Below are positions 34,918 through 49,870 of a stretch of 51,842 nucleotides of DNA, one piece after another; position 1 is the first letter of the stretch, and each line of letters starts with the position of its first letter. Where the stretch lies: positions 1,450,998 to 1,502,839 of the forward strand of contig NZ_LT904908.1 of the NCBI RefSeq assembly GCF_900199705.1, given 5' to 3'. This DNA comes from Collinsella provencensis. GTDB taxonomy: Bacteria > Actinomycetota > Coriobacteriia > Coriobacteriales > Coriobacteriaceae. The position numbers and the translations under genes are program-made. The notes beneath the pieces were generated by a model. The model saw only the letters and a program-made list of their open reading frames with translations. It searched no databases and had not been told where the DNA came from.

Positions 34918-35955
34918 TTAGTAGTCGACGATGGAGAGCTGCGAGCCAGCCGCTGCGACGATTTCCTCGCTGGACAGATGGTTGATGCTGCCTGGAATCG
35001 TGGACTTGAGCGCACTCGACGTCAACGCGTAGTTGATGATGGTCGAGGATTTCCATTCGTTGCGCACGCCGTGGATCACGCCCGCGGCAAACGAGTCGCC
35101 GCATCCGGAGTGCTCGTCGTTGAGCACCTCACGCGAGGTCGAAAGGGTCGTCTCGCCTTCGCGTACCAGCAAGCCGCGCCATCTACCGATGCCACTCGCA
35201 GCTGTGGAGCGAATCTGAATCGCAACGGCTTCGCACTGGTAGCGGTCGCACAGCTCGAGCGCGATGTCCTGGTAGTAGTCGAGGAACCCGAATGTTGAGG
35301 TATGGTCGGGGTTGATGTTGGGGCGGGGGAACAGGCTCCAAATGTCCTGGTCAGATGCAATGCACACGTCGATGTAGGGTAGCAGACGCTCCCAGCTCTC
35401 GTGCGCGAGCGCGCGGTCCCACATGCGCGGACGGTAGTTGAGGTCGCAGAACGTCTTAACACCACGGCCCTTACAGGCAATAAGCGCATCCTCAACCGCT
35501 TTACTCAATTCAGGGCTGATGGCGGGCAACACGCCGGTGAAATAAAACGCGTCGACGCCGTTGAGCAGGCTATCCCAGTCGAAATCTTCGCGTTTGAGCA
35601 GGGACATGGGCGTGTATTCGCGGTCGTAAAGCACGGAGGAGCGCCTGATGCCGCTGCCTCGCTCAAAGTAGATGACGCCCATGCGCCCGGGTCCACGTGT
35701 CACACGCGTGACATCCACACCGGCGGCGAGCAGATTGGTGAGGCAGCGGTCGCCCAGGCGATTGTCCGAAATACAACTCGCATACGCCACGTTATCGCCC
35801 TGGTGCGCCAGGTCGATAGCGACCATCGCCTCGGCGCCATCGAACAGAACCTGCAGGTTGGCGGTCTGTTCAATGCGCTCGTGTCCTGTAGGGGAGAGGC
35901 GAAGCAGCAGTTCGCCGAAGCAGAGGATTTTATTTGAGTAGGAAAAAGCCGCCAT
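34918..35955 (-). CDS. PfkB family sugar kinase, probably 2-keto-3-deoxygluconate kinase
   Basis: This 345-residue ribokinase-fold enzyme phosphorylates a sugar or sugar acid with ATP. The substrate end shows CFGELLLRLSPTG and HQGDNVAYASCISDNRLGD. The catalytic loop is SGCGDSFAAGVIHG, with Asp as the base and Cys where Ala is usual. The overall pattern, with YFERGSGIRRSSVLYDRE and FCDLNYRPRMW, is that of KdgK-type kinases, which make 2-keto-3-deoxy-6-phosphogluconate from uronic acid breakdown. GAGAGGACC precedes ATG 35955. No KDPG aldolase gene is nearby, so the pathway is not shown to be complete here. Confidence 0.85.
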   Translation of the reverse strand: MAAFSYSNKILCFGELLLRLSPTGHERIEQTANLQVLFDGAEAMVAIDLAHQGDNVAYASCISDNRLGDRCLTNLLAAGVDVTRVTRGPGRMGVIYFERGSGIRRSSVLYDREYTPMSLLKREDFDWDSLLNGVDAFYFTGVLPAISPELSKAVEDALIACKGRGVKTFCDLNYRPRMWDRALAHESWERLLPYIDVCIASDQDIWSLFPRPNINPDHTSTFGFLDYYQDIALELCDRYQCEAVAIQIRSTAASGIGRWRGLLVREGETTLSTSREVLNDEHSGCGDSFAAGVIHGVRNEWKSSTIINYALTSSALKSTIPGSINHLSSEEIVAAAGSQLSIVDY

Positions 35956-36226
35956 TGGTCCTCTCCAAAAGATGGTTGGTACGTTCAACTCGAAGCGTGC
36001 GTTTCGAAAACACTGCCGCGCGGGTGAAGCGATCGGCTACATGGGCGAAGCGTTTGGGCGCATGGGTCGGGCCTAACCGCTCTGCCGCACGGGCTTGACC
36101 GCCCAAATGCATGGGCAACGCGCCCGGTTGCATGAGTCGAAGCGCTTGGTCACACGTCTCGTGTTAACGAAGAAACATTATATGACCGATTGATTGCCTT
36201 GAAACCACCCATGCAGTTTTTATGCA
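35956..36226. other. short degenerate repeats between two minus-strand genes
   Basis: No gene is seen. Words such as GCATGGGC, GAAGCG and CGGGCTTGACCG recur in loose tandem between 36000 and 36150, similar in character to the tracts around 34400 and 34750. Confidence 0.4.
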
Positions 36227-36799
36227 CTAGTAGCGCGGCTTGCGGATGCGCGTGACCTTCTTCGGCATGAGCTTTTTGACAAATGCAACACCATCTTTGG
36301 AAGAAACGCGGTCGGTTACCTTCTTGAACTGGATGCGGATGGGCGCAAAGCCCGCGTCGAGGTTCGCCTGTGCAAGCTTTTGTTGGCGCTTGCTGAGCTT
36401 GGCGTACCACGTGTCAAAGTCGGAGGGGATAGCGCACAGATAATCGTCGTTCTTAAGACGCAGCAAGAAAACCTCGGAAATTTCGTCCCACGGGGTGAAG
36501 CCCGAGGAAAGCGCCGAGGTGTTGTCGGTGATTCCCTCGGCGTCGATGCGGATGGCATTCCTGCGATGAACGAGCTTTCGCACGTTCATATAAATAAGAC
36601 CGAGCGCAACAGGGATGCCGCAATAGCCCATGCCGATGCGCATGACCATGGGGTTTTCCGCATAGGGCAGAGGTGCGAAGGCAGCCAGCAGTGCAGCCAC
36701 CAGCAGGCACACGCCCATAAAGATAATGAGGATGTGCAAGACGATGGGGTTACGGACTTCCAAAACATCGTCAGATCGATATGCCGTGGTTTCGTTCAT
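36227..36799 (-). CDS. STM3941-like small membrane protein
   Basis: This 190-residue protein has two hydrophobic helices at about 18-42 and 55-72 and a cytoplasmic part that fits a PH-like fold (AIRIDAEGITDNTSALSSGF, then PWDEISEVFLLRLKNDDYL). The layout matches the STM3941 family, whose function is unknown. AAGGAAGGG precedes ATG 36799. The last 20 residues are very basic (KKLMPKKVTRIRKPRY). It is divergent from the PTS locus. Confidence 0.65.
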   Translation of the reverse strand: MNETTAYRSDDVLEVRNPIVLHILIIFMGVCLLVAALLAAFAPLPYAENPMVMRIGMGYCGIPVALGLIYMNVRKLVHRRNAIRIDAEGITDNTSALSSGFTPWDEISEVFLLRLKNDDYLCAIPSDFDTWYAKLSKRQQKLAQANLDAGFAPIRIQFKKVTDRVSSKDGVAFVKKLMPKKVTRIRKPRY

Positions 36800-36882
36800 G
36801 GCCCTTCCTTAGAAATGTGGTGGTTCGATGTCGTGCACTGACATCATAGCAGGCTTGCCGTATTAAATGTGAAGAAACTATG

Positions 36883-36937: not shown

Positions 36938-37036
36938 TAAAATGAAGGAAATATGAATAGAAGGCGATATAACGGATTGTGCTGCAGAACTAAATGTGTG
37001 CAGACTATGATTCAGGTCGTGGAAAGGACGACCAAG

Positions 37037-37068
37037 CTAAGGCGAGGTTGTTCGCAAACTCGCTTTAG
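37037..37068 (+). other. hairpin in the leader of the PTS genes
   Basis: CTAAGGCGAGGTT pairs with AAACTCGCTTTAG, with one mismatch and one G-U, 23 bases before the IIB start. No T-run follows. It could affect message stability or act with an antiterminator, but it shows no known RAT motif. Confidence 0.5.
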
Positions 37069-37090
37069 TGAAGTTAGGAGAGGAGGAGAC

Positions 37091-37417
37091 ATGGCAGAGA
37101 AGAAGTTCATCGTGGGCGTGACCGCATGCCAGATCGGCATTGCGCACACCTTCATGGCGGCTGAATCCCTTACTCAGGCCATCGAGGCTCTCGGTTGCGA
37201 GGCCAAGATCGAGACCCAGGGTGCAACCGGCATGGAGAACGTGATCACCGACGAGGATCTTGCTCGTTGCGACGCCGCCATCATCGCGGCCGACGTGAAG
37301 ATCAAGAATCCCGAGCGTTTTGATCCGATTCCCACGCTTTCGTGCAAGACGAAAGAGGTCATGACCGTTCAGACCGCGAAGGGCGTGGTCGAAGAAGTAT
37401 TGGAGGCTATTTCCTAA
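37091..37417 (+). CDS. PTS fructose-type IIB component
   Basis: This 108-residue phosphocarrier domain accepts phosphate from IIA on Cys13 (VTACQIGIAHTFMAAESL) and passes it to the sugar entering through IIC. Usual fructose IIB proteins read CPTGIAHTFMA; here it is CQIGIAHTFMA. GGAGAGGAGGAG precedes ATG 37091. The stop codon overlaps the start of IIC (TAATG), so the two are translated together. The IIA component of the same type is 10 kb downstream at 47722. The sugar is not known; fructose itself, mannosylglycerate and other substrates are used by relatives. Confidence 0.92.
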   Translation: MAEKKFIVGVTACQIGIAHTFMAAESLTQAIEALGCEAKIETQGATGMENVITDEDLARCDAAIIAADVKIKNPERFDPIPTLSCKTKEVMTVQTAKGVVEEVLEAIS

Positions 37418-38538
37418 TGGCAGAGATCCAGCGCAAGGGTGCCAAGAAGAAGTCCCAGGCCCAGGTTGCTTGGGATGCCGTTCTTACTGGCATTTCCTAC
37501 ATGATTCCTTTCATCGTCGGTGGCGGCGTCCTGTGGGGCATCGCTAAGGCGATGGGCGGCTACAACATCGCCGCCGACATGGCCGAGCTCGACTACACGC
37601 AGTACACGCTCGCTATGGTCATCTACTCCATCGGTTCCGCCATCTTCAACGTGTGCGTGCCGATCATCGGTGCTTACATCGGTTGGGCTCTCGCTGATAA
37701 GCCCGGCCTCGCCCCCGGATTCGCCGTCGGTGTCATTTCCAACACCATCAAGGCCGGCTTCCTCGGCGCGGTCGTGGGCGGCCTCATCGCCGGCTATGTG
37801 ACCATCTGGATGAAGGACCTCTCCAAGAAGGTTCCTACTTCGGTTAACTCCGTCTTCCCGATCCTCCTGATCCCGGTGTTTTCCACTCTCGTGACCTCCC
37901 TGCTCATGTGGTACGTCGTGGGCGTGCCCATCGGCTGGTTCATGACCATGATCACCAATGCTCTGATGGACCTTCAGGGTGCCGGCGGCTTCGTCTTTGG
38001 TGCTGCCATCGGTGCCGGTATGTCCATTGACCAGGGTGGCCCGATCGGCAAGGCCGTCGCCCTCGTTGCCAACGGCCTCAACGCCGACGGTATCTTTGGC
38101 CCGGCTGCCTGCAAGATGTGCGGCGGCATGCAGAACCCGCTCGGCGTCTGCTTCGCCCAGATCATCGACCGCTTCACCGGCAAGAAGAAGTTCACCGAGA
38201 AGGAGCGTTCCACCACGGTCTCCGGCCTCGTGCTCGCTTGCTGCTACATCCAGGAGTACGTCATTCCGTTCCTCGTTCAGGATACCTGGCGCTGCCTCGT
38301 CCCCTGCATGCTCGGCGGTGCGCTCTCCGGTGGTCTCTGCGGCTACTTCGCGCTTGAGTCCGCGGCTGTTCACGGCGGCATCTTCGTTATCCCGATGATG
38401 AGCAACCCGCTGCAGTTCGTGCTCTTCTGGTTCGCTGGCGCTGCTGTTACCGGCATCCTCTACTTCCTGCTCCGCAAGCCTGTGGACCAGGACGCTGAGA
38501 TGGCTGGCAACGGTGTTCTCGATCAGCTCCTCGGCTAG
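37417..38538 (+). CDS. PTS fructose-type IIC permease component
   Basis: This 373-residue membrane protein carries the sugar across as it is phosphorylated. It has about nine hydrophobic helices. Family motifs are GISYMIPFIVGGGVLWGIA, LADKPGLAPGFAVG, GFLGAVVGGLIAGY and AAIGAGMSIDQGGPIGKAV. The cytoplasmic end is short. Its start codon overlaps the stop of IIB. A strong terminator follows, so IIB-IIC may form its own transcript. Confidence 0.92.
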   Translation: MAEIQRKGAKKKSQAQVAWDAVLTGISYMIPFIVGGGVLWGIAKAMGGYNIAADMAELDYTQYTLAMVIYSIGSAIFNVCVPIIGAYIGWALADKPGLAPGFAVGVISNTIKAGFLGAVVGGLIAGYVTIWMKDLSKKVPTSVNSVFPILLIPVFSTLVTSLLMWYVVGVPIGWFMTMITNALMDLQGAGGFVFGAAIGAGMSIDQGGPIGKAVALVANGLNADGIFGPAACKMCGGMQNPLGVCFAQIIDRFTGKKKFTEKERSTTVSGLVLACCYIQEYVIPFLVQDTWRCLVPCMLGGALSGGLCGYFALESAAVHGGIFVIPMMSNPLQFVLFWFAGAAVTGILYFLLRKPVDQDAEMAGNGVLDQLLG

Positions 38539-38552
38539 TTAGAAGCCTATGT

Positions 38553-38594
38553 ATCGGAGGGGCGCTTCGCCCGAAGCTCCCCTCCGATTTTTCT
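38553..38594 (+). terminator. intrinsic terminator after PTS IIC
   Basis: ATCGGAGGGG pairs perfectly with CCCCTCCGAT (both arms enclosing CGCTTCGCCCGAAGCT) and is followed by TTTTTC. Confidence 0.88.
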
Positions 38595-38751
38595 AACCGC
38601 CTGTGGAATATCGCGTTCACACATCCCCTCGTCGGACGCGGTATTTCAAAGGCGCAACGAAACGTATGAAAGGCCCTTGTTTAGCAGGGGATGACCCGTT
38701 GCGGCAAATTGTCATAAAAACGCGCATGCGCGATTGAAGAAGGAGAGGCAC

Positions 38752-39633
38752 ATGTACACATCGATGAAGGAAATGCTCGACCACGCGAACGAGAACAATT
38801 ACGCGGTCATGGCAATCAACTGCACCAACATGGAGCAGGCCCGCGCCATCTGCTACGCCGCCGCCGAAGAGGCTTCGCCGGTGATCATCAACGTTTCTCC
38901 GCGTCAGATGCTCGCCCACGCCACGCCCGAGATCATGGTTCCCATGATTCGCGCCATCGCCGAGCCGCTCGACGTGCCCATCGCCTTCAACCTCGATCAC
39001 GGTGACACCTACACCAACGTGTGCCGCTGCCTGCGCGCTGGCTTCTCTTCCGTCATGATCGACTCCTCTTCTTACGAGTTCGAGGAGAACATCCGCCGCA
39101 CGCGCATGGTGACCTCCGTTGCCCACGCCTATGGCGCGAGCGTCGAGGCCGAGCTCGGCCACGTGGGCGTTGCCGCCAACGGCGACGGCCAGACCTCCGA
39201 CATGTACACCAATGTCGAGCAGGCCGTCGAGTTCGCCGACCGCACGCACTGCGACTGCCTGGCCGTTGCCATCGGAACCGCTCACGGCGCGTATCCCGAC
39301 GATTTCGTTCCCCGTCTCGACTTCGACCGTCTTGCCGAGCTCAAGGCTGCCACCAAGATGCCGCTCGTGCTCCACGGTGGTTCCGGCGCGGGCGAGGAGA
39401 ACATCCGCCGCGTCGTCGAGCTGGGCATCAATAAGATTAACGTATGCACCGACCTGTTCAAGCATCAGCGCAAGGCCATGCACGCTAAGCTCAATGAGGA
39501 GCCCAATATCGACTACATGGATATCCAGATGTGGGGTGAGGATGCCGCTAAGGACTACATCAAGTCCTACATGCGCATGATCGGTTCTTCGGGTCGTTAC
39601 ACGTTCGATTACACGGGCGAGCAGTTCGACTAG
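38752..39633 (+). CDS. class II fructose/tagatose-bisphosphate aldolase family
   Basis: This 293-residue zinc aldolase splits or forms a ketose bisphosphate with dihydroxyacetone phosphate as one product. Zinc and active-site motifs are FNLDHGDTY, VEAELGHVG, AIGTAHGAY and LHGGSGAGEENI, closing with INVCTDLF. The protein is of the GatY/KbaY/FbaA type, and exact substrate choice cannot be read. AAGGAGAGGCAC lies before ATG 38752. Placed between PTS components and glycerate kinase, it probably handles the PTS product instead of general glycolysis. Confidence 0.9.
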   Translation: MYTSMKEMLDHANENNYAVMAINCTNMEQARAICYAAAEEASPVIINVSPRQMLAHATPEIMVPMIRAIAEPLDVPIAFNLDHGDTYTNVCRCLRAGFSSVMIDSSSYEFEENIRRTRMVTSVAHAYGASVEAELGHVGVAANGDGQTSDMYTNVEQAVEFADRTHCDCLAVAIGTAHGAYPDDFVPRLDFDRLAELKAATKMPLVLHGGSGAGEENIRRVVELGINKINVCTDLFKHQRKAMHAKLNEEPNIDYMDIQMWGEDAAKDYIKSYMRMIGSSGRYTFDYTGEQFD

Positions 39634-39660
39634 TTGCAGTTGCTTGGGGGCAGTCGGCAC

Positions 39661-40809
39661 ATGACGCGGTTTCTTTTCGCATCCGATTCGTTTAAGGGGA
39701 CGCTTTCGAGCGCTCAGATCGCCGAGATTCTCGAGGACGAGGCTCGCAAGGTGTTCCCCGAAGTTGAATGTGCCGCCCTGCCCATTGCCGACGGTGGCGA
39801 GGGCACGGTTGAAGCCGTGCTCGCCGCATGCGGCGGCGACTATGTGTCCGTGCTGGTAGAGGGGCCGCTTGGCGGTTCCGTCGAAGCATCGTACGGCATT
39901 TTGCCCGACGGCCGTTGCATCATCGAGCTGGCCGCCGCCTCTGGTATCACGCTGGTTGAGCGCGATCGCTTGAATCCGCTCCGCACATCCACGGTCGGTT
40001 TTGGTCAGCTGATTCGCCACGCTCTTGAGCATGGTGCGCGCTCCGTGTACCTGGCTTTGGGCGGAAGCGCCACCAACGACGGTGGCATGGGCGCCCTGCG
40101 CGCCCTGGGCGTTCGCTTCCTCGCTGCCCAAGGCAACGAGCTTTATGGCAGGGGAGAGGACCTCTCCAAAATCGCTTCCCTTGATGTTTCCGACCTCATG
40201 CCCGAGGTTGCCGAAGCCACGTTTATCGTGATGTGCGATGTGACCAATCCACTCGTGGGGCCCAAGGGCGCCACGGCGGTGTTCGGCCCTCAAAAGGGCG
40301 GCAGTGTTGAGCAGCTCGCTGAGCTTGAGCGCGGCATGATCAACTATGCGCAGGTCATCAAACGCACGCTGGGTGTGGATGTTGCCGACCTCGCGGGCGC
40401 GGGCGCGGCGGGCGGCATGGGTGCCGCGGCTGCCGCGTTTTTATCTGCAAACCTGGTCTCGGGCATCGACTGCCTGATGGACCTTGCTCATTTCGACGAT
40501 CTGCTCGCTCGGGCAGATTATTGCTTCACCGGCGAAGGGCGCGTTGACGCACAGTCCCTTGATGGCAAAGTGCTTTCGGGTGTTGCCCGTCGCTGCGCCT
40601 CGGCGTCAACGCCGCTCTACGTCATTACCGGTTCCATTTCGAATGATGCCCACCGCCTGCTCGATCGGGGTGTGACGGCGCTCTACCCTTGCGTCGATGC
40701 CTCCACGCCGCTCGAAGAGGCTCTGGCGCATGCCGAGGAGAATTACCGTCGTACTGCAGCCCGTGTGTTTAACGAGCTTTCGCGCCAAAACGCCGAGGAG
40801 GCGGAGTAA
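39661..40809 (+). CDS. glycerate kinase (GlxK/GarK type)
   Basis: This 382-residue kinase phosphorylates D-glycerate, typically to 2-phosphoglycerate, feeding lower glycolysis. Motifs are FASDSFKGTLSSAQIAE at the start, PIADGGEGTVEAV, ALGGSATNDGGMGAL, DVTNPLVGPKGAT and FTGEGRVDAQSLDGK. GGGGGCAG precedes ATG 39661. Its TAA stop overlaps the ATG of the acyl-CoA synthetase, so the two are translationally coupled, an unusual pairing that suggests a shared pathway. Confidence 0.92.
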   Translation: MTRFLFASDSFKGTLSSAQIAEILEDEARKVFPEVECAALPIADGGEGTVEAVLAACGGDYVSVLVEGPLGGSVEASYGILPDGRCIIELAAASGITLVERDRLNPLRTSTVGFGQLIRHALEHGARSVYLALGGSATNDGGMGALRALGVRFLAAQGNELYGRGEDLSKIASLDVSDLMPEVAEATFIVMCDVTNPLVGPKGATAVFGPQKGGSVEQLAELERGMINYAQVIKRTLGVDVADLAGAGAAGGMGAAAAAFLSANLVSGIDCLMDLAHFDDLLARADYCFTGEGRVDAQSLDGKVLSGVARRCASASTPLYVITGSISNDAHRLLDRGVTALYPCVDASTPLEEALAHAEENYRRTAARVFNELSRQNAEEAE

Positions 40810-42428
40810 TGATTACGGGAAGCGCATGCTGGAGCACCGCCTTACAGCGCGGCATGACCGAGCGCGTAATTGATGGGCGTACGTTCTATACGTTTGCGGA
40901 AATGCCCGAAACAATTTATGACGTACTTGCCCAGGCTGCTGCCGCGCATCCTGGTTCTATCGCCATCGTTGATGACGATGGCACGAGCTATACCTTTGCC
41001 AGGTTGCTGGAGCTCACCGACGGTATGGCAGCCTATCTCGCGCATCGCTACGGCGTGGGCGAGGGTGACCGCGTTGGCATGTTGTTGGGCGCGAGCATCG
41101 AGTTTTGCGCCATCTACTTTGCGTGCAGCAAGATCGGCGCCGTGGTCGTGCCGTTTTCCACCAAGTATCGCGAAAAGGAAATCGTGCAACTCCTGATCCA
41201 TGCCGAGCTCAAGGTGCTCCTCACTGATGCGCACGATGCACGTCGTGCGGGTGAGGCGATTCACGCTGTCGATACGGTTGAACTATGCGATCCATCGCTA
41301 GAGGGATTTCGTTTTGCGGGAGCATTGGAACCGCTGCCCGCGCCCACTCGCGCCGGTGGCTTGGCATCTCCCGCGGTCATGATGTACACCTCGGGCACCA
41401 CGTCGATGTCCAAGGCAGTGGTGCTCACCAACCTCAACGTGGTGCATGCCGCGCTCGTGTACCAGCGCCTCATGGGCACCACGGAGTTCGATCGCACGGT
41501 TATTCCGGTTCCCATTTACCATGTAACGGGTCTTATCGCCCTGCTCACACAGTTTGTTTACGCGGGTGCCTGTATCTATCTGCATCGTCGCTTCGACGCG
41601 CGCCGCCTACTCGAGTGCGTGCACGATGAGAACATCACCTACCTGCATGCCTCTCCCACGGCATTCGAAAAGCTGCTGCCCCTGCGCGATGAGTTCCCCG
41701 AGCTGCCTTCGCTGCGCGCCCTGCTTTCGGGATCGAGCTACGAGCCCGTGCCCAAGATGCGCGCGTTCCACGCGTGGCTTCCCGCTTGCGCGTTCCAGGT
41801 GGTATACGGCCTCACCGAGACCGCCTCACCCGCCCTGCTGTTCCCCTTTGATTCTCCTACCAGCATTTATGCCGGCGCAACGGGTAAGCCGTTCCCCGGC
41901 GTCGAGGCCTGCATCGTAGACGACGAGGGCAACGAGGTTGAAACCGGGGTGGTCGGAGAGCTGCTTTTGCGCGGCTCCTGCATTACCCCCGGGTATTTCA
42001 ACTGCGAGAAGACCGCGCTCAACGCGGACGGCTGGCTCGCCACAGGCGACATGGGATACGCCGATGCCCTTGGCATGGTGTGGGTCGTGGACCGCAAGAA
42101 GGACATGATCAACCGCGGTGGCGAGAAGGTCTGGTGCAGCTGTCTGGAGGAGACGCTCTGTGCTTTGTCCGGTGTGTGCGAGGCATGCGTCGCCGGCATT
42201 CCCGACGAGCTCTACGGCGAAGTTCCCGTGGCAGCAATCGTTCCAGAGCCGGATGCTGACCTCACCGAGGAGGGCATCATCGCCGCCATGCGCGAGCGCG
42301 TCGCCGGCTTTGAGGTGCCCGAGCACGTGATCTTTGCCGACTATATTCCGCAAACCGTAGGCGATAAGCCTAATCGTGCCGCCGTGAGGGCTGCCGTACT
42401 TGAACAGAAAGGGATGATCGCCCGATGA
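40809..42428 (+). CDS. acyl-CoA synthetase (AMP-forming)
   Basis: This 539-residue ligase of the ANL superfamily activates a carboxylic acid to its CoA ester through an acyl-adenylate. Motifs are MYTSGTTSMSKAVVLT (phosphate loop; the usual GxPKG is altered to SMSKA), VVYGLTETASP (A5), LATGDMGYADALGMVWVVDR (A7-A8), NRGGEKVW and the closing VGDKPNRAAVR with the catalytic lysine. The specificity for chain length is unknown. Start and stop overlap both neighbours (TAATG and ATGA), which marks a tight operon with glycerate kinase and the CoA-transferase. Confidence 0.9.
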   Translation: MITGSACWSTALQRGMTERVIDGRTFYTFAEMPETIYDVLAQAAAAHPGSIAIVDDDGTSYTFARLLELTDGMAAYLAHRYGVGEGDRVGMLLGASIEFCAIYFACSKIGAVVVPFSTKYREKEIVQLLIHAELKVLLTDAHDARRAGEAIHAVDTVELCDPSLEGFRFAGALEPLPAPTRAGGLASPAVMMYTSGTTSMSKAVVLTNLNVVHAALVYQRLMGTTEFDRTVIPVPIYHVTGLIALLTQFVYAGACIYLHRRFDARRLLECVHDENITYLHASPTAFEKLLPLRDEFPELPSLRALLSGSSYEPVPKMRAFHAWLPACAFQVVYGLTETASPALLFPFDSPTSIYAGATGKPFPGVEACIVDDEGNEVETGVVGELLLRGSCITPGYFNCEKTALNADGWLATGDMGYADALGMVWVVDRKKDMINRGGEKVWCSCLEETLCALSGVCEACVAGIPDELYGEVPVAAIVPEPDADLTEEGIIAAMRERVAGFEVPEHVIFADYIPQTVGDKPNRAAVRAAVLEQKGMIAR

Positions 42429-44005
42429 TCAAGGCGAATTTTGTAACTGCCGACGAGGTTGCCGCCTCGATTGAGGATGGTTCGACCATCGCGACGATCG
42501 GCATGACGCTCGTCTCCGCCTCCGAGACCAATCTCAAGGCCATTGAGCGTCGCTTCCTCGAAACGGGCCACCCCTGCAACTTGACGCTGATGCACTCCTG
42601 CGGCCAGTCCGACCGCGAGCGTGGCATTCAGCACTTTGCCCACGAGGGCCTGGTCACGCGCATCATCGGTTCTCACTGGGGCTTGCAGCCGCGTTGGATG
42701 GACATGATCGCCAACAACCAGGTCGAGGCCTACTGCCTGCCGCAGGGCCAGATCGCCCAGCTGTATCGCTCCATGGCCTGCGGCCTGCCCGGCAAGATGA
42801 GCAAGGTTGGACTGGGAACGTTCATCGACCCGCGCATCGAGGGCGGCAAGATGAACGACCGCACCCGTGAGCTTGAGGACATCACGCAGATCATCGAGGT
42901 CAACGGCGAAGAGTACATGTTCTACAACGCCGTGCCGCTCGATTACGTGTTCATCCGCGGCACCGTCTGCGACGAGATGGGTAACCTCACCACCACCGAA
43001 GAGGCCATGAAGCTCGAGGTCTTCAATGCGGTGCTCGCTGCCAAGCGCTTTGGCGGTCAGGTAATCGCCCAGGTTAAGCACGTTGTGAAGAACGGCACCA
43101 TCAATCCCAAGGACGTCACCGTCCCCGGTGTGTTCATCGACAAGATCGTGGTTTGCGACGATCCCGAGAACGACCATCGTCAGACCCATTCCTTCTACTA
43201 TGACGCTTCGTACTGCGGCCAGATGGTCGTGCCCGAGACGGCTATCGAGCCCGCGCCTTTCAACGAGCGCAAGTTCATCGCCCGCCGCGGCGTGATGGAG
43301 ATGTATCCGGGCTGCGTGGTCAACCTCGGCACCGGCATCCCCAATGACATGGTGGGTCGCGTGGCGCAGGAGGAGGGCATTTCCTCCGAGGTCATGATTA
43401 CCGTCGAGAGCGGCATCTACGGCGGCGTGCAGATGGGTGGCGTGGACTTTGGCATCGGCCAGAATCTCGTTGCCATGGTGAGTCACCCCGAGCAGTTCGA
43501 CTACTACGACGGCGCCGGCGTCGACGTGACGTACATGGGCCTCGGTGAGCTCGATGGCGAGGGCAACGTGAACTCCACCAAGATGGGTCCGCGCTGCACG
43601 GGTGCCGGCGGTTTTATCGACATCACCCAAAACGCCAAGAAGGTCGTGTTCCTGGGCACCTTTACCGCCCGCGGCGCGAAGTACCGCTTTGAAGACGGCA
43701 AGCTCCACATCGACCAAGAGGGTCAGATCAAGAAGATGGTCTCCAAGGTGGCGCAGCTCTCCTTCAACGGTCCGCAGTCCCGCGCCTCCGACCAGCAGGT
43801 GATCGTGGTCACCGAGCGCGCGGTGTTCGAGCTCGTTCCCGAGGGCGTCAAGCTCATCGAGATCGCACCGGGTATCGACCTGCAGACGCAGGTGCTCGAC
43901 ATGATGGACTTCACGCCCATCATCGCCGACGACCTCAAGGTCATGGACGCCTGCCTGTTCACGACCGATGGCCCTGCGGGGCTTATCGACTATCTGCAGG
44001 CGTAG
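42425..44005 (+). CDS. acyl-CoA:carboxylate CoA-transferase (propionate CoA-transferase type)
   Basis: This 526-residue family I transferase exchanges CoA between acids through a glutamyl-CoA enzyme. Both halves of the fold are in one chain. The catalytic glutamate is Glu328 in TVESGIYGGVQMGG, and FIDITQNAKKVVFLGTFTA is typical of Pct/YdiF enzymes. Relatives move CoA between acetyl-CoA and propionate, lactate, 3-hydroxybutyrate or butyrate. The start overlaps the stop of the acyl-CoA synthetase by four bases. With the next two genes it could run 3-hydroxybutyrate to acetoacetyl-CoA and acetyl-CoA, or the reverse. Confidence 0.92.
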   Translation: MIKANFVTADEVAASIEDGSTIATIGMTLVSASETNLKAIERRFLETGHPCNLTLMHSCGQSDRERGIQHFAHEGLVTRIIGSHWGLQPRWMDMIANNQVEAYCLPQGQIAQLYRSMACGLPGKMSKVGLGTFIDPRIEGGKMNDRTRELEDITQIIEVNGEEYMFYNAVPLDYVFIRGTVCDEMGNLTTTEEAMKLEVFNAVLAAKRFGGQVIAQVKHVVKNGTINPKDVTVPGVFIDKIVVCDDPENDHRQTHSFYYDASYCGQMVVPETAIEPAPFNERKFIARRGVMEMYPGCVVNLGTGIPNDMVGRVAQEEGISSEVMITVESGIYGGVQMGGVDFGIGQNLVAMVSHPEQFDYYDGAGVDVTYMGLGELDGEGNVNSTKMGPRCTGAGGFIDITQNAKKVVFLGTFTARGAKYRFEDGKLHIDQEGQIKKMVSKVAQLSFNGPQSRASDQQVIVVTERAVFELVPEGVKLIEIAPGIDLQTQVLDMMDFTPIIADDLKVMDACLFTTDGPAGLIDYLQA

Positions 44006-44109
44006 CGCTGCGGGCGAGGGTCACAACCCGCCGGCCCGCACCAAGACGGTTTTTCCACGCGCTCGCGTGCAAACACATAGATAACTTGTTCAGATGAAAG
44101 GAATGAACA

Positions 44110-44952
44110 ATGACCAAGGTAGCAGTTATCGGATCGGGTCTCATGGGCGGCGGCATCGCTCAGGCATGTGCAGTTGCGGGCTATGAGGTCGTCAACATCG
44201 ACATCGCGCAGGAGCCGCTCGACAAGGCCCGGGCCCTCGTTGCCAAGCTCATGAACGGCAAGGTTGCCAAGGGCAAGATGACCCAAGAGGCATGCGACGA
44301 GGTCCTCGGCCGCATGACCTACTCCACCGATTACGCCAACCTTGCCGATGCCAAGTTCGTCATCGAGGCCGTGCCCGAGCGCCTCGACTTCAAGCAGAGC
44401 ACGTTCGCCAAGATGGACGAGTTCGCCGACGAGGGCGCCGTGCTGCTCACCAACACCTCCGGCATCAACATCGACGACATCGCTGCTGCCACCAAGCGTC
44501 CCGAGTCCGTGCTCGGCATGCACTTCTTCTATCCCGCGCCCGTCATGAAGCTCGTCGAGCTCATCCGCGGCACGGCAACCACTGATGAGGCCTTTGCCGC
44601 TGCCCAGGAGCTCGCCGCGAAGATCGGCAAGACGAGTGTCACCGCTCCCAACCAGCCCGGCTTCATCGTCAACCGCATCATCGTTCCATATCAGAACGAG
44701 GGCGCTTTCCTGGTTTCCGAGGGCTGCACGCCCGAGGACGTGGACAACGGCATGAAGCTCGGCTGCAACCACCCGATGGGCCCCTGTGAGCTCATGGACT
44801 TCACCGGCATCGATGTCGTGTACGCCACCATGAAGGGCCTTTACGAGTCCTTCGGCGACGAGAAGTACCGTCCCTGCCCGCTGCTCAAGGAGATGATCGA
44901 TGCCGGTCATCTGGGCCGCAAGACCGGCCAGGGCTTCTACACCTACGAGTAA
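44110..44952 (+). CDS. 3-hydroxybutyryl-CoA dehydrogenase
   Basis: This 280-residue NAD(P)-dependent enzyme interconverts (S)-3-hydroxyacyl-CoA and acetoacetyl-CoA. The nucleotide motif VIGSGLMGGGIAQACA is at residues 6-21, and the catalytic His138 is in LGMHFFYPAPVMKLVE. The residue after HFF is Tyr141 where Asn is usual in the family, near the active site. NQPGFIVNRIIVPYQNEG and the C-terminal helical dimer domain with NHPMGPCELMDFTGID are normal. GAAAGGA precedes ATG 44110. The thiolase gene follows after a hairpin. No crotonase or butyryl-CoA dehydrogenase is in the window. Confidence 0.93.
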   Translation: MTKVAVIGSGLMGGGIAQACAVAGYEVVNIDIAQEPLDKARALVAKLMNGKVAKGKMTQEACDEVLGRMTYSTDYANLADAKFVIEAVPERLDFKQSTFAKMDEFADEGAVLLTNTSGINIDDIAAATKRPESVLGMHFFYPAPVMKLVELIRGTATTDEAFAAAQELAAKIGKTSVTAPNQPGFIVNRIIVPYQNEGAFLVSEGCTPEDVDNGMKLGCNHPMGPCELMDFTGIDVVYATMKGLYESFGDEKYRPCPLLKEMIDAGHLGRKTGQGFYTYE

Positions 44953-44966
44953 GCCATCTCGCACAT

Positions 44967-45047
44967 GCCGAGATCCGCGCGAGCGGTGCGCTCGATGCTC
45001 GTGCAAGCCTTCTGAGTGACCTTTCGCGCTTGCGCGGACCTCTCGGC
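44967..45047 (+). other. long stem-loop between the hydroxyacyl dehydrogenase and thiolase genes
   Basis: GCCGAGATCCGCGCGAGCG pairs with CGCTTGCGCGGA-CCT-CTCGGC over about 18 pairs with a small bulge. Only TTTT, some bases later, follows. It may shield or pause the message between the two genes and so set different levels for them. Confidence 0.55.
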
Positions 45048-45117
45048 TCCCGTTTTCGGACGTTGTTTTTATACCTGCTTCCGTTATTTGTTCTTCCTGC
45101 TGTTAGGAGTATGTTCC

Positions 45118-46320
45118 ATGGAAAAGAACGCAAACGATATCGTCATCGTCTCCGGTGCCCGTACCGCCGTTGGTAAGTTCGGCGGCAGCCTCAAGGGCAC
45201 ATCCGCCATCGATATGGGCGCCCTCGTGGTCGCCGAGGCCGTCAAGCGTGCTGGCATCGATCCCGCAGTGGTCGACGAATGCATCATCGGCCAGGTTGGC
45301 TCCTGGGGCGAGAACGGCTTCCTTGCCCGTTCGATCAGCCTCAAGGCCGGTCTGCCCAATGAGACCTGCGCCTATTCCGTCAACCGTCAGTGCGGTTCTG
45401 GTCTGCAGTCCATCGTCGACGGCATCATGGAAATCCAGACCGGTGCCAGCGAGGTCGTCGTTGCGGGCGGTTCCGAAAACCTCTCCCAGCTGCCCTACTA
45501 CGTGCCGAGCGCGCGCTGGGGCGCCCGCATGGGCCACAAGCAGTTCGAGGACGGCGTGATTGACATCCTCACCTGGCCGCTCGACATGTCCCACAACGGC
45601 GTGACCGCCGAGAACGTTGCCAAGAAGTACAACGTTTCCCGCGAGGAGCAGGACGCCTTCGCCGCCACGAGCCAGCAGCGCGCCTGCGCCGCCATCGAGG
45701 CCGGCGTGTACAGGGACGAGATCGTCCCCGTTGAACTCAAGGACCGCAAGGGCAACGTGACCCTGTTCGACACCGACGAGAATCCGCGTGCGGGCGTTAC
45801 CGCTGAGAGCCTCGCTCGCCTGAAGCCCTGCTTCGTGTTCGACGGCACCGGCACGGTTACCGCTGCTAACTCCTCCAGCCTGAATGACGCTGCGGCTGCC
45901 GTGGTCATCATGACCCGCGCTAAGGCCGAGGAGCTCGGCTGCACCCCCATGGTCGCCATTCGCGGCTATGCGGTTGCCGGCTTCGACGCGTCCCTCATGG
46001 GCTACTCGCCGTACTATTCCAGCAAGAAGCTCGCCGACAAGCTGGGCCTCAACCTTGCGGACATCGACATGGTCGAGATCAACGAGGCCTTCGCCAGTCA
46101 GGCTTACGCCGTCATGCGCGACCTCGGCCTCGATCACGACAAGGTGAACATCTACGGCGGCGGTATCTCCGTCGGCCACCCCATCGGAGCCACCGGCACC
46201 ATCCTGGCAATCAAGTGCGCCTACGAGCTGGCCGTCCGTCACCCCGAGAAGAAGGACGCCATGGTGTCCATGTGCATCGGCGGCGGCCAGGGCATCTCGA
46301 TGTACTTCACCGCTGAGTAA
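45118..46320 (+). CDS. acetyl-CoA acetyltransferase (thiolase)
   Basis: This 400-residue thiolase joins two acetyl-CoA to acetoacetyl-CoA or splits it. Nucleophile Cys92 is in SVNRQCGSGLQS, His354 in GGGISVGHPIGATG and the second Cys386 in MCIGGGQG. EINEAFASQAY is also typical. ATG 45118 with TTAGGAG upstream is favoured over ATG 45016. It pairs with the 3-hydroxybutyryl-CoA dehydrogenase before it. Confidence 0.95.
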   Translation: MEKNANDIVIVSGARTAVGKFGGSLKGTSAIDMGALVVAEAVKRAGIDPAVVDECIIGQVGSWGENGFLARSISLKAGLPNETCAYSVNRQCGSGLQSIVDGIMEIQTGASEVVVAGGSENLSQLPYYVPSARWGARMGHKQFEDGVIDILTWPLDMSHNGVTAENVAKKYNVSREEQDAFAATSQQRACAAIEAGVYRDEIVPVELKDRKGNVTLFDTDENPRAGVTAESLARLKPCFVFDGTGTVTAANSSSLNDAAAAVVIMTRAKAEELGCTPMVAIRGYAVAGFDASLMGYSPYYSSKKLADKLGLNLADIDMVEINEAFASQAYAVMRDLGLDHDKVNIYGGGISVGHPIGATGTILAIKCAYELAVRHPEKKDAMVSMCIGGGQGISMYFTAE

Positions 46321-46431
46321 GTTCTCCGTGTCGTTCCCGACGCGCTACCGCGCAAGCGGTGCCGCGGGGTTCTGCGGGGGACACCTATAAATCGGTTTTA
46401 TTAACGTTCGTCTCAACATAAGGAGATAGTA

Positions 46432-47622
46432 ATGGTCAATTTTGAGTATCTCGTTCCCACCAAGATCGTGTTCGGTAAGGAGACCGAGCTTGAGGCCGGT
46501 CGCCTGGTCAAGGAGTTCGGCGGCAGCAAGGCCCTCATTCACTGGGGCGGCGACTATGTGCGCACCACCGGTCTGCTCGATCGCGTCGAGGCCGGCCTGA
46601 AGGACGCGGGCGTCGAGTTCGTCGAGTTCGACGGCGTTGTGCCCAACCCGCGCCTGTCCCTCGTGAAGGAGGGTGTCGAGCTCTGCAAGAAGGAGGGCGT
46701 CGACTTCGTGCTCGCCATCGGCGGCGGCTCCGCCATCGACTCCTCCAAGGCCATTGCCTATGGTCTTGCCAACGACTTCGAGCTCGAGGACCTGTTCCTC
46801 GGCAAGGTTTCGACCACCAAGATCGCCAAGATCGGCGCTATTTCCACGCTCGCCGGCACCGGTTCTGAGACCTCGAACTCCACTGTCATCAACATCGACA
46901 CCATGGGCGACAAGATGCTCAAGCGCTCTTACAACCATGAGTGCGCTCGTCCGCTGTTCGCCATCATGAACCCAGAGCTCACCTATTCGTTGCCTGCGTA
47001 TCAGACCGCCGCTCCCGGCGCCGACATCATGATGCACACCATGGAGCGCTACTTCACGCTCGAGCAGCACACCGAGCTCACCGACGAGATTTCCGAGGGC
47101 CTGCTGCGCACGGTGAAGACCATGGTTCCCGAGGCGCTCGCCAACCCCAAGAGCTACGCCGCCCGCGCCAATCTGCTGCTCGCCGGCTCCAAGTCCCATG
47201 ACGGCCTGACCGGCCTGGGTTGCGTGGGCGACTTCGCCTGCCACGCCATCGAGCACGAGATCGGTGCCATGTTCGATGTCGCTCACGGCGCTGGTCTGAC
47301 CGCCATCTGGTCCAGCTGGGCCAAGTATGTCATCGACGTCGACCCGGTTCGTTTCGCCCAGTTCGCGGTGAACGTCTGGGGCGTTCAGAACGATTTCCAC
47401 GATCCCAAGGCAACCGGCCTGCGCGGCATCGAGGCTTGGGACCAGTGGTGCCACGCCATCGGCATGCCCACCACGCTCGGCGAGCTTGGCATCGAACCCA
47501 CCGACGAGCAGATTCACGAGATGGCTCAGGGCGCCGTCGACGCCCGCGGCGGCGACCACGCTGGCGCTTTCATGCAGCTGCACGTTGAGGACATCGAGAA
47601 CATCCTCAAGGCTGCCCGCTAA
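46432..47622 (+). CDS. iron-containing alcohol dehydrogenase (butanol dehydrogenase type)
   Basis: This 396-residue group III dehydrogenase interconverts aldehydes and alcohols with NAD(P)H. It starts MVNFEYLVPTKIVFGKE, with the nucleotide loop AIGGGSAIDSSKAIAYG and STLAGTGSETSNSTV. The iron-ligand segments are ADIMMHTMERYF and CHAIEHEIGAMFDVAHGAGL. It is a different gene from the related protein at 33027 and closer to BdhA-type butanol dehydrogenases. AAGGAGATAGTA precedes ATG 46432. In this locus it may dispose of an aldehyde from the aldolase reaction or serve as an electron sink. Confidence 0.93.
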   Translation: MVNFEYLVPTKIVFGKETELEAGRLVKEFGGSKALIHWGGDYVRTTGLLDRVEAGLKDAGVEFVEFDGVVPNPRLSLVKEGVELCKKEGVDFVLAIGGGSAIDSSKAIAYGLANDFELEDLFLGKVSTTKIAKIGAISTLAGTGSETSNSTVINIDTMGDKMLKRSYNHECARPLFAIMNPELTYSLPAYQTAAPGADIMMHTMERYFTLEQHTELTDEISEGLLRTVKTMVPEALANPKSYAARANLLLAGSKSHDGLTGLGCVGDFACHAIEHEIGAMFDVAHGAGLTAIWSSWAKYVIDVDPVRFAQFAVNVWGVQNDFHDPKATGLRGIEAWDQWCHAIGMPTTLGELGIEPTDEQIHEMAQGAVDARGGDHAGAFMQLHVEDIENILKAAR

Positions 47623-47721
47623 TATAGGAATGTGTTTGTAGTGTCCCTTGTGGACGGGGCGGCTCGTTTTGCGCGGGCCGCCCACTTGAATACCTCGGAT
47701 AACCTCGAAAGGATTGACCCC

Positions 47722-48180
47722 ATGATGGATTTCGTAAAACCCAACCAGGTTCTTCTCGACGTCGACTGCACCACCAAGGACGAGGTGCTCGCCCTGCTTT
47801 CCGCCAAGGCTCTTGAGCTTGGCATCACCGATGACGAGGCTGCCGTCAAGGCCGCCTTCGACGCGCGTGAGGCCGAGGGTACCACGGGCATGATGGACGG
47901 CTTCGCCGTGCCGCACGCCAAGACTGCTGCCATCAAGGATGCCGCGGTCATCGTGGTGCGTTTCGCTGCCCCCATCGCCGACTGGGAGTCCATCGACGGC
48001 TCCGAGATCACCGTGGGTATCGCCCTGCTCGTTCCCGAGGCCGAGGCCGGCAGCACGCACATCACGCTGCTCGCCCAGATTGCCCGCGCCCTTATGGACG
48101 AGGAGTTCCGCAATGTGATCCGCACCGCTACGGAGCCTTCTCAGATTTCCGAGCTGATCAATGAGCGTCTCGGCGATTAA
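47722..48180 (+). CDS. PTS fructose-type IIA component
   Basis: This 152-residue domain takes phosphate from HPr on His65 (MDGFAVPHAKTAAI) and hands it to IIB. The family region from FVKPNQVLLDV to ISELINERLGD is complete. GAAAGGATTGACC precedes ATG 47722. It is the only IIA in the window and fits the IIB-IIC genes 10 kb upstream, with the metabolic genes between them. The downstream carrier gene overlaps its last 20 bases. Confidence 0.92.
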   Translation: MMDFVKPNQVLLDVDCTTKDEVLALLSAKALELGITDDEAAVKAAFDAREAEGTTGMMDGFAVPHAKTAAIKDAAVIVVRFAAPIADWESIDGSEITVGIALLVPEAEAGSTHITLLAQIARALMDEEFRNVIRTATEPSQISELINERLGD

Positions 48181-49570
48181 CACATTGCCCGCGCAACAGC
48201 AGGTGAGCGCCGTTTCCGCCAAACGAGTTGTCGTTTTGGTAGTGGGCACGGCGCTCCTGCTTTTCTTGGGGCTCATTTACGCGTACTCCGTCCTGCTGGC
48301 TCCGCTTAAGGCCGAACATAACTGGCCGGTTTCGGGCATGACGCTCATCTTTGCGCTGTCCATTTCGTCGTTCACCATCGGTGGCCTGTTGGCGGGCCAG
48401 ATCGTGCGACGCAAGAAGACGCGCACGGGCTTTATCCTGGGTGCGGCGTTTTTGCTTGCTGGCTTTTTGGGCACTGCTGCCGCGACGGGCGACGGAAGTC
48501 TGGTGCAGGTATGCGTTACCTACGGCGTGCTGGCGAGCTTCGGCATCGGCGTGGTGTACAACATCGTTATTCCAGTCGTGAGCTGGTGGTTTCCCGATAA
48601 GCCCGGTCTTGCCCAGGGCGTGTGCCTCATGGGCTTTGGCATGGGCGGTTTTCTGCTGGGACCGGTGATTACGGGTCTGTACGCAAAAGTTGCCTGGCGT
48701 CCTGTGATTGCGCTGGTAGGAGCGGTGTTTGCGCTCATCATCGTGGTTTGTGCGTTTGTGATTCGCGTTCCTCGCGGCGAAGAGCTGGGTCTGTCTGGCG
48801 ATAGCGCCCAAGATAGGGGCGACCATGCGGATAGATGCACGGACAAATGCTCTGCGGCGAGTCGTATGAGTGCGGATCTCTCGACGAGTGCTTCTACGGT
48901 GCGCGATTCTGAGGCATGCGGTCTTGCAGCGCGCAAATCCGCAGTACACGAATCGGCTCCCCGTGTTTTGGGTGCCCGCGAATCGCTCGTGCAGATGTTC
49001 CATTCTCCGGTGTTTTACCTCGAGTTTTTGTTCCTGTTCTGTGTGGGTTCCAACGGTATGGGCATCACCGGTCTTGGCCGCGAGCTGCCGCTTTCGCTCG
49101 GTGTTGACGATATGGCCGCTGCGCTCATCATCGGTTTTGTGAACATCGGAAGCGGTTTTGGTCGTTTGGGCGGCGGTATGTTGCTCGATCGCTTGGGCAG
49201 CATCCGCACCATGCGCGGTATTGCGGTGATTGCAATGTTGGCCCCGCTTGCCATGGCGGCATCGCTTGCGCAAGTTAGCGTTGGCCTGCAGCTCATTGCG
49301 TGTTTGCTGTTCGGTCTTTCGTGGGGCGCTGCCATCGTGACCATGCCATTTATCACGCGCCGTGAGTGGGGACAGGAAAACCTTGCCCAGAACATGGCGA
49401 TTGTGAACACGTACAGCATCTTCGGTTCGATGGTGGGATCGTTTGGAGCGGGCATCCTTGCCGAGGCGTGTGGATCCTACATGCCGGTTCTTGCCATCAT
49501 GGGGGCGCTTGCAGTGGTGGCGCTGCTTATCGTTTCCCGCATGGGGCACCTGCGTAAACAGCGTGCATAG
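48161..49570 (+). CDS. MFS transporter, oxalate/formate antiporter (OFA) type
   Basis: This 469-residue major facilitator has twelve predicted helices with motifs close to OFA proteins: GTALLLFLGLIYAYSVLLAP at helix 1, GIGVVYNIVIPVVSWWFPDK and GLAQGVCLMGFGMGGFLLGP. The loop between helices 6 and 7 (about 205-275) is long, polar and Ser/Arg/Ala-rich, with less biased codons. Carriers of this type exchange monocarboxylates such as formate, oxalate, lactate or pyruvate. ATG 48161 lies inside the IIA gene, so translation is probably coupled. It could import or export an acid that the CoA enzymes handle. Confidence 0.85.
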   Translation: MSVSAINTLPAQQQVSAVSAKRVVVLVVGTALLLFLGLIYAYSVLLAPLKAEHNWPVSGMTLIFALSISSFTIGGLLAGQIVRRKKTRTGFILGAAFLLAGFLGTAAATGDGSLVQVCVTYGVLASFGIGVVYNIVIPVVSWWFPDKPGLAQGVCLMGFGMGGFLLGPVITGLYAKVAWRPVIALVGAVFALIIVVCAFVIRVPRGEELGLSGDSAQDRGDHADRCTDKCSAASRMSADLSTSASTVRDSEACGLAARKSAVHESAPRVLGARESLVQMFHSPVFYLEFLFLFCVGSNGMGITGLGRELPLSLGVDDMAAALIIGFVNIGSGFGRLGGGMLLDRLGSIRTMRGIAVIAMLAPLAMAASLAQVSVGLQLIACLLFGLSWGAAIVTMPFITRREWGQENLAQNMAIVNTYSIFGSMVGSFGAGILAEACGSYMPVLAIMGALAVVALLIVSRMGHLRKQRA

Positions 49571-49717
49571 CCTGTGCAGAACGCATGCATGCATTCTGCA
49601 CTCGTGCCCGACATGGTCAACGCCACTGGGGCCGCGCCCCCTTTTTTTCAGTGCGTTCTGCGTCTGTTTCCAGCATGGTAAATGTTGTTGGGATCGCTCC
49701 CGTTTACGGTGTGGTCA

Positions 49718-49870
49718 CATTCGTTTCGAAATTCTGAAGGTAAAACCTAAAGTCCAAAGTACACTTTATTAGAATAAAGCGCTCAACTGGTAAAACGAGA
49801 TCGAAAGTACCTGCAAAATCACTGTCTACTCAAGAAGTCCCGGTTTACCTTCAGAATTTCGCAACGAGTG
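49718..49870. mobile_element. MITE with 31-bp-type inverted ends, copy 3 (inverted)
   Basis: The left end reads CATTCGTTTCGAAATTCTGA continued by AGGTAAA, and the right end has TTTACCTTCAGAATTTCGCA then ACGAGTG. Reverse-complemented, the interior matches the copy at 34519, sharing TACTTTCGATCTCGTTTTAC-type and AATAAAGTGTACTTTGGA landmarks. It is 153 bp. It fills the gap between the MFS gene and the pyruvate formate-lyase activase gene. Confidence 0.82.

Follow-up and report, generated by a model that had tools for sequence, protein, structure and literature searches.

A Collinsella provencensis gene cluster joining a phosphotransferase system, a class II aldolase and CoA enzymes: possible catabolism of sugar acids by way of glycerate

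What is consumed, or made, by a cluster in which a phosphotransferase system (PTS) of the fructose family encloses a class II aldolase, a glycerate kinase and a set of CoA enzymes with butyrate-like names? The question is raised by eleven plus-strand genes in a 51,842-nt stretch of the Collinsella provencensis genome (1.74 Mb, three contigs), which spans positions 1450998-1502839 and is hereafter called the window; the coordinates below are counted within it. An original prediction had read the genes as a 3-hydroxybutyryl-CoA pathway bracketed by PTS components, serving either the breakdown of an imported compound to a sugar part and a 3-hydroxy acid, or the formation of 3-hydroxybutyrate as an electron sink. 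Our tentative answer, which in our judgement falls just short of an even chance, is a sugar-acid catabolic cluster, whose inferred substrates and reactions form two limbs that would meet at glycerate and continue through glycerate kinase. The 3-hydroxybutyrate interpretation is probably wrong, and on sequence comparison the '3-hydroxybutyryl-CoA pathway' label reflects family names, not the nearest studied relatives.

The gene content and order claimed by the original prediction stand, all eleven genes being present and assigned by family models. Ten of the proteins were scanned against Pfam, all scoring over the cut-off, and the carrier of the major facilitator superfamily (MFS) was scanned against NCBIfam only. 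The PTS is complete, with its IIB (37091..37417; PF02302, TIGR00829), IIC (37414..38538; TIGR01427, 250.6 bits, cut-off 157.55) and IIA (47722..48180; PF00359; TIGR00848, 105.2 bits, cut-off 103.5) models all over their cut-offs. Between IIC and IIA lie genes for a class II aldolase of the dihydroxyacetone phosphate (DHAP) type (38752..39633; PF01116, 312.6 bits), a glycerate kinase (39661..40809; PF02595, 448.9 bits), an AMP-forming acyl-CoA synthetase (40809..42428; PF00501 and PF13193), a fused CoA-transferase of the YdiF/FadX type (42425..44005; PF01144; PDB 2ahu, YdiF, 5.6e-117), a 3-hydroxyacyl-CoA dehydrogenase of the 3HCDH family (44110..44952; PF02737 and PF00725), a thiolase (45118..46320; PF00108 and PF02803) and an iron-containing alcohol dehydrogenase (Fe-ADH) of the butanol dehydrogenase/YqhD class (46432..47622; PF00465; PDB 1vlj, 1.3e-73). 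The MFS carrier, of the lactate/oxalate family, comes last (48161..49570; NF049980, 192 bits, under its cut-off of 320). The synthetase gave no matches to solved structures at E 1e-60. Overlaps of 4 bases between IIB and IIC (37414/37417) and 20 bases between IIA and the MFS gene (48161/48180) accompany the predicted ones of 1 base between glycerate kinase and synthetase (40809) and 4 bases between synthetase and CoA-transferase (42425/42428). Judged from the sequence, the probable start of the aldolase is ATG 38752, and those of glycerate kinase, thiolase and IIA are ATG 39661, 45118 and 47722, not the listed TTG 39634, GTG 45016 and GTG 47632. In the sequences and alignments the residues that we take to be catalytic seem intact, namely the IIB Cys (in VTACQIGIAHT), the IIA His (in VPHAKT), the thiolase Cys-His-Cys and the dehydrogenase Ser-His-Asn.

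The CoA genes find a studied counterpart in Klebsiella michiganensis M5al, where the cluster BWI76_RS23695-RS23730 is important for deoxyribonate use but not for the use of deoxynucleosides or deoxynucleotides, nor under any of 92 other conditions (Price et al. 2019, PMC6365646). The route proposed there leads from deoxyribonyl-CoA through 3-ketodeoxyribonyl-CoA to glyceryl-CoA and acetyl-CoA, and from glycerate to 2-phosphoglycerate (PMC6365646); such a route through glyceryl-CoA and glycerate would explain the glycerate kinase of the window. Both clusters comprise a synthetase, a CoA-transferase, a 3-hydroxyacyl-CoA dehydrogenase step, a thiolase, a glycerate kinase and MFS transport, whereas the Klebsiella cluster has a short-chain dehydrogenase/reductase (SDR) instead of the 3HCDH enzyme, has a lactonase and carries no PTS, aldolase or Fe-ADH. 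The genetics thus comes from K. michiganensis, and the sequence comparison was made with K. pneumoniae homologues. In K. pneumoniae a single run encodes synthetase, CoA-transferase, SDR, thiolase, MFS, a gluconolactonase-like protein, a further MFS and glycerate kinase; in one record (L024) an IS element separates thiolase from MFS. The homologous pairs share 34% (synthetase), 58% (CoA-transferase), 55% (thiolase) and 37% (glycerate kinase) identity with the window, so that a homologous synthetase, CoA-transferase and thiolase with a glycerate kinase in the same cluster are common to both.

Clusters with these CoA genes fall into two types. Type I consists of synthetase, CoA-transferase, SDR and/or 3-hydroxyacyl-CoA dehydrogenase and thiolase, lacks a PTS and, where a transporter was seen, has an SSS symporter or an ABC transporter; type II, the kind found in the window, unites PTS, class II aldolase, synthetase, CoA-transferase, dehydrogenase, thiolase and Fe-ADH and has no SDR. 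In the type I loci of Lachnospiraceae and Bacillaceae (L056, L059, L060, L009) the synthetase, CoA-transferase, 3HCDH enzyme and thiolase are about 37-76% identical to those of the window, the stretch of L056 ending before any thiolase; unlike the window, these loci have an SSS symporter, an additional SDR and no PTS or aldolase, and L009 alone among them has a glycerate kinase. With 56% identity to its Klebsiella counterpart, the type I SDR links type I, which holds the nearest relatives of the type II CoA genes, to the Klebsiella pathway.

Residues close to the active sites point in the same direction. The window thiolase has Gln before the nucleophilic Cys (NRQC) and Asn after the pocket His (HNG), a pair found in 25 of 28 rows: in all 17 of type II and in 8/11 of type I, the K. 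pneumoniae homologue (L023) included, so that the window and the Klebsiella type share it. It is missing from both PDB rows (8jg3, 8gqj) and from all eight outside controls, of which L123 has the Gln alone. The dehydrogenase has NTSG and HFFYP where the canonical motifs are NTSS and HFFNP, as do all 17 type II and 5/8 type I rows; the Asn near the catalytic His, which is Tyr in the window, is kept in 6aa8 and 8/8 outside controls, while NTSG by itself is unspecific, being present in control L132. The outside controls for both enzymes were picked by hand from a plasmid collection, out of a spread of 40 hits each. Only rows at least 80% as long as the query were kept, leaving 10 type I rows in the synthetase tree, 14 in the CoA-transferase tree, 11 for thiolase and 8 for dehydrogenase. 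The three thiolase exceptions (L062, L063, L064) have Leu and Met instead; they were typed as I by their CoA-transferase and kept in the type I counts where rows exist, and their canonical-like thiolases (Leu, HMG) suggest that they probably belong to another pathway. Together with L065, they are more clusters of CoA-transferase, thiolase and synthetase genes; L066 and L067, with only a distant CoA-transferase, were likewise kept in the type I counts. We infer that the changes in thiolase and dehydrogenase may read hydroxyl groups of the substrate. The NRQC/HNG and HFFYP marks could also help to tell quickly, in gut genomes, whether such an enzyme is likely to act on sugar acids or belongs to butyrate metabolism.

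On this evidence the CoA genes are likely to constitute a limb for a 2-deoxyaldonate. A 2-deoxy-3-hydroxyaldonate, probably a 2-deoxypentonate, would be activated by the synthetase, as a priming step, and by the CoA-transferase; the dehydrogenase would oxidise C3, the thiolase would cut the product to acetyl-CoA and glyceryl-CoA, and the CoA-transferase would release glycerate, ideally handing the CoA to the next acid. Enzymes of the 3HCDH family use L-3-hydroxyacyl-CoA and FabG-like SDRs usually the D form. The switch from SDR to 3HCDH suggests the opposite configuration at C3, and the type II acid may therefore be the threo, not the erythro, 2-deoxypentonate.

For the PTS limb the main clue is an arginine in the aldolase. 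A loop position that is Gly or Ser in fructose-bisphosphate aldolases is Arg in 17/17 type II rows (SPRQ in the window, IolJ-like in that residue), in three of four stand-alone modules and in the IolJ-like L137, the same protein accession being encoded in an iolB-iolC-iolD operon as well. Fifteen further aldolases of class II lack it (GatY, YdjI, two that are PTS-linked, 7ncc and another ten), as does L142, which is nearly identical to 7ncc. This arginine is proposed here as a mark of IolJ and is not an established definition. In the substrate of IolJ, phosphate and carboxylate sit at opposite ends, and a carboxylate-bearing substrate is proposed for the type II aldolase because it shares the loop arginine. 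That this limb handles a ketose with a carboxylate seems to us an evenly balanced proposal. The PTS would import and phosphorylate a keto-aldonate, for example a 5-keto-hexonate of the fructuronate, tagaturonate or 5-ketogluconate type; the IolJ-like aldolase would yield DHAP and tartronate semialdehyde, the Fe-ADH would reduce the latter to glycerate, and glycerate kinase would pass the glycerate of both limbs to glycolysis.

Known systems offer partial parallels to this limb. The E. coli ydj cluster, by its RefSeq names, also brings a class II aldolase together with dehydrogenases and transporters that serve a ketose acid. YdjH is a PfkB-type kinase, and ydjH/ydjI offers a precedent for a kinase-aldolase pair acting on acid ketoses; that cluster has no CoA limb and no PTS, and YdjI lacks the loop arginine. 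The inositol enzymes IolC and IolJ likewise provide a sugar-acid kinase and a class II aldolase with the same arginine, whereas in the iol operon seen there is no PTS and no glycerate kinase, and a CoA-acylating semialdehyde dehydrogenase replaces the thiolase limb. In the open-access literature, judged from titles and the starts of abstracts, no description was found of a PTS route for keto-gluconate or tartronate semialdehyde or of sugar-acid class II aldolases.

The genome itself limits what the cluster can do. Its glycerate kinase is the only PF02595 match and lies in the cluster; the aldolase is one of five PF01116 matches. Aldehyde dehydrogenase (ALDH) matches are confined to two frames, of 886 and 438 residues, which by their lengths we take to be AdhE and ProA, and oxidation of the aldehyde released by the aldolase to an acid was rejected accordingly; its reduction by the Fe-ADH is more likely because only these two frames exist. 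It is also more likely that the acid feeding the CoA limb enters the cell already as an acid. As claimed, crotonase is absent (PF00378, no match in the genome), unlike in a butyrate synthesis cluster, and butyryl-CoA dehydrogenase is not encoded in the cluster, the genome beyond it not having been searched for this enzyme. Nor was there a sign elsewhere of a butyrate set that shares the thiolase and dehydrogenase, which was to refute the original prediction: beside the lack of a crotonase match, the cluster thiolase is the only one over the cut-off, the other match reaching 24.2 bits. A butyrate or polyhydroxybutyrate route was rejected on these grounds.

The association of the two halves is not confined to C. 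provencensis. The type II set comprises 17 loci read through the CoA genes, 12 of Coriobacteriia (the window, L001, L002, L003, L004, L007, L012, L068, L090, L091, L094, L095) and five of Bacillota (L005, L006, L014 with L053, L055, L057); for an eighteenth, the Bacillota locus L104, the stretch read starts at the thiolase. IIB, IIC, aldolase, glycerate kinase, synthetase, CoA-transferase, dehydrogenase, thiolase and Fe-ADH occur together in 11/11 other Coriobacteriia loci, and in five Bacillota loci, of which four lack glycerate kinase, the set lies in linked runs. The linkage of these genes exceeds chance. IIA is present in 10/12 Coriobacteriia loci (the stretches of L068 and L095 lack it) and 6/6 Bacillota loci; glycerate kinase is found in 12/12 and 2/6, respectively, standing 3' of the Fe-ADH in four of the 11 other Coriobacteriia loci. 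All six Bacillota loci encode a PRD/EIIA-type regulator, as assigned by Pfam domains. Type II synthetases form one clade apart from type I (support 99/98), and so do the CoA-transferases (99/98), which fits a single joining of the PTS and CoA genes; two genomes, G215 (L055 and L056) and G105 (L057 and L058), contain both types.

In the aldolase tree type II is not separated from the stand-alone modules, which have PTS, aldolase and Fe-ADH without CoA genes (L076, L077, L078 and the more distant L079). Such modules indicate that the PTS half can work as a pathway of its own. L079 (G216:C3) is a PTS-aldolase locus with genes for a PfkB kinase, an aldo-keto reductase, an RpiB/LacAB-type isomerase and dehydrogenases; its aldolase is the one without the loop arginine, and its substrate may differ.

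Several observations weigh against two limbs meeting at glycerate. We know of no established uptake of keto-hexonates by this PTS family, and a single arginine is a slender basis for proposing a carboxylate. In the CoA limb, a 3HCDH-family enzyme stands in place of the SDR 3-dehydrogenase of the Klebsiella type, and the SDR of type I and Klebsiella had no match (E 1e-8) in the window or the 17 other type II stretches. Of all enzymes in that limb it is the synthetase that diverges most between types I and II, and the acid may therefore be one other than deoxyribonate. Nor are the counts independent, as the 17 type II rows collapse to 12 groups at 95% CoA-transferase identity, with near-copies among L001/L002/L091, L003/L004/L012 and L007/L090. 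No glycerate kinase lies in the stretches read of four Bacillota loci (L005, L006, L055, L057) and the four stand-alone modules. In the same four Bacillota loci, moreover, a single strand carries the regulator together with the PTS, aldolase and CoA genes, and the run includes no further transporter; this arrangement favours one substrate processed in series over two limbs. Finally, the Klebsiella cleavage step is itself only proposed, its authors having no direct evidence for it (PMC6365646).

The alternative that survives best takes up the last but one of these points. A single longer 2-deoxy-ulosonic acid (formally C8) would be imported by the PTS and converted to DHAP, acetyl-CoA and glycerate. 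Either the aldolase would act first, giving DHAP and a C5 acid-aldehyde that the Fe-ADH turns into a 2-deoxypentonate for the CoA enzymes, or these would shorten the acid first and the aldolase would then release DHAP and tartronate semialdehyde. Every gene finds a use in this scheme, which agrees with the one-strand Bacillota runs, their PRD/EIIA-type regulator (6/6 loci) and the lack of another transporter within the run, with the single clade formed by each of the type II synthetases and CoA-transferases, and with the presence of only two ALDH frames. An aldolase of class II for a C8 acid ketose is also on record, E. coli YdjH and YdjI being named octuluronate kinase and octuluronate-1-phosphate aldolase in RefSeq. 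However, YdjI lacks the loop arginine, the PTS-aldolase-ADH module is also found without CoA genes, and no natural 2-deoxy-octulosonate is known to us. We consider one substrate in series unlikely, and the complete dismantling of a PTS-imported higher-carbon 2-deoxy-ulosonic acid by aldolase, Fe-ADH and thiolase marginally more so; if true, both the fermentative sugar-acid pathway and the class of PTS substrate would be new.

A relation to inositol catabolism is more doubtful still. The PTS would import 5-keto-2-deoxygluconate, the aldolase would form DHAP and malonate semialdehyde, and the CoA genes would act on 3-hydroxypropionate made by the Fe-ADH. The IolJ-like loop arginine fits this scheme, as does a nearby PfkB kinase that matches the IolC model weakly (79.6 bits, far under the cut-off of 300), but the dehydrogenase and thiolase would have to obtain formyl-CoA from 3-hydroxypropionyl-CoA, for which we know of no precedent, the glycerate kinase would be left unexplained, and the thiolase motifs fit the enzyme of the Klebsiella deoxyribonate type. 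Rather less probable again is the ordinary breakdown of a short-chain 3-hydroxy acid beside an unrelated PTS sugar operon; the enzyme set would suffice to convert 3-hydroxybutyrate to acetyl-CoA, yet the residues of thiolase and dehydrogenase, the linkage of both halves in two phyla and the glycerate kinase in the locus argue otherwise. Least credible, and in our view very improbable, is the electron sink of the original prediction, in which 3-hydroxybutyrate made from two acetyl-CoA is exported by the MFS carrier: the family names of thiolase and dehydrogenase and the monocarboxylate type of the carrier agree with it, but synthesis needs no synthetase, which 17/17 type II loci read that far possess, the glycerate kinase is left unexplained, the residues differ from those of acetyl-CoA acetyltransferase and 3-hydroxybutyryl-CoA dehydrogenase rows and controls, and the MFS carrier has no match in 5/11 other Coriobacteriia loci.

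Of the other reading offered originally, breakdown to a sugar part and a 3-hydroxy acid, the catabolic direction and, most likely, the 3-hydroxy acid can be retained, and 3-hydroxybutyrate cannot; the acid is more likely a polyhydroxylated 2-deoxyaldonate, given the Klebsiella homology, the thiolase and dehydrogenase residues and the glycerate kinase. Oxidative deoxyribonate catabolism has been described from strains of Pseudomonas and Klebsiella and from Burkholderia-like ones, all of them aerobic or facultative (PMC6365646). If true, two limbs meeting at glycerate would extend it to fermenting anaerobes in two phyla, with a PTS and an acid-ketose aldolase added, and would illustrate how butyrate-like names (3-hydroxybutyryl-CoA dehydrogenase, acetyl-CoA acetyltransferase) can misguide annotation. 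The combined cluster of PTS, aldolase, glycerate kinase and CoA genes was not found described in the open-access titles and abstract starts, and other descriptions may exist.

Conservation in relatives was borne out in part, the gene set being kept in other Coriobacteriia and in Bacillota but not in the genus itself, where the CoA-transferase has no match (E <= 0.001) in 34 other Collinsella genomes. At E <= 1e-180 it matches in 11 of 346 genomes of the class, namely the host and ten from one other family (Olsenella, Thermophilibacter, Tractidigestivibacter; tree label Atopobiaceae), of which eight, all but G418 and G523, were read at length, three being the L003, L004 and L007 records. Because no relative within the genus matches and the matches in the class otherwise come from one other family, the cluster was probably acquired in this genome. 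The CoA-transferase tree places the window next to the 11 other Coriobacteriia rows, which group at 86/84, below the star threshold of the tool. In the family of the Lachnospiraceae-type genome G062, 10/299 genomes, G062 included, match the CoA-transferase (E <= 1e-150); the aldolase search found G062 alone among 391 genomes of its class, and 2/206 in another family. The glycerate kinase of G062 seems to be split in two frames (G062:C47:8197-9347, L052). In five of six Bacillota type II loci (L005, L006, L014/L053, L055 and L104, not L057) a further protein adjoins the aldolase, with a weak NERD domain in the L006 copy.

The gap between IIC and the aldolase contains a strong RNA hairpin followed by a U run (38553..38588, plus strand), which may be a terminator or an attenuator. 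The 62-nt stretch folds at -29.8 kcal/mol (z -5.4), none of 200 shuffles being as stable; it was noticed by eye and by folding and is missing from the simple terminator scan. A hairpin occupies the same place in 12/12 Coriobacteriia loci, the window included, that of L007 being found only weaker by a scripted check. Among Bacillota, L005 and L006 have a hairpin and L055 a weak one, and L014, L057 and L104 have none, their IIC-aldolase gaps being 19-25 nt. Many of these hairpins lack a clear U run and are candidate terminators only. PTS genes and enzymes may thus be expressed separately or at different levels in Coriobacteriia; separate regulation, which was to count against a common role, is possible there, but not indicated by the short gaps of three of the six Bacillota loci. 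Rfam gave no matches at the gathering score over 33000-50200, and promoter and terminator scans gave no excess over shuffles.

On the minus strand, upstream of the cluster, lie genes for an STM3941-family protein (36227..36799; NF041635 over cut-off) and for a PfkB sugar-acid kinase resembling 2-keto-3-deoxygluconate (KDG) kinase (34918..35988), whose closest solved structure is the KDG kinase 2afb (2.2e-60). The STM3941-family gene lies beside the cluster in 11/11 other Coriobacteriia loci, with 37-62% identity and always opposite the cluster strand; the kinase gene is likewise present in all 11, in L068 and L095 on the same strand as the cluster. The two genes thus accompany 12/12 Coriobacteriia and 0/6 Bacillota type II loci. 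KDPG aldolase (PF01081) has no match in the C. provencensis genome, compared with matches in 10/10 other genomes tested, which weakens the usual KDG breakdown by the divergent kinase and hence its candidacy as an Entner-Doudoroff KDG kinase in this genome. The kinase could instead phosphorylate the acid of the PTS limb where a neighbouring permease is present and admits it. Farther out, beyond the kinase gene and outside the conserved block, is a second YqhD-like Fe-ADH (33027-34250, minus strand), which shares about 28-35% identity with the other clusters' Fe-ADHs. Pyruvate formate-lyase (27598-29799) and a pyruvate formate-lyase-activating enzyme (49931-50839), both on the plus strand and about 20 kb apart, flank the cluster, and three degenerate 20-bp tandem units are found at 34455-34514, between the second Fe-ADH and the kinase gene.

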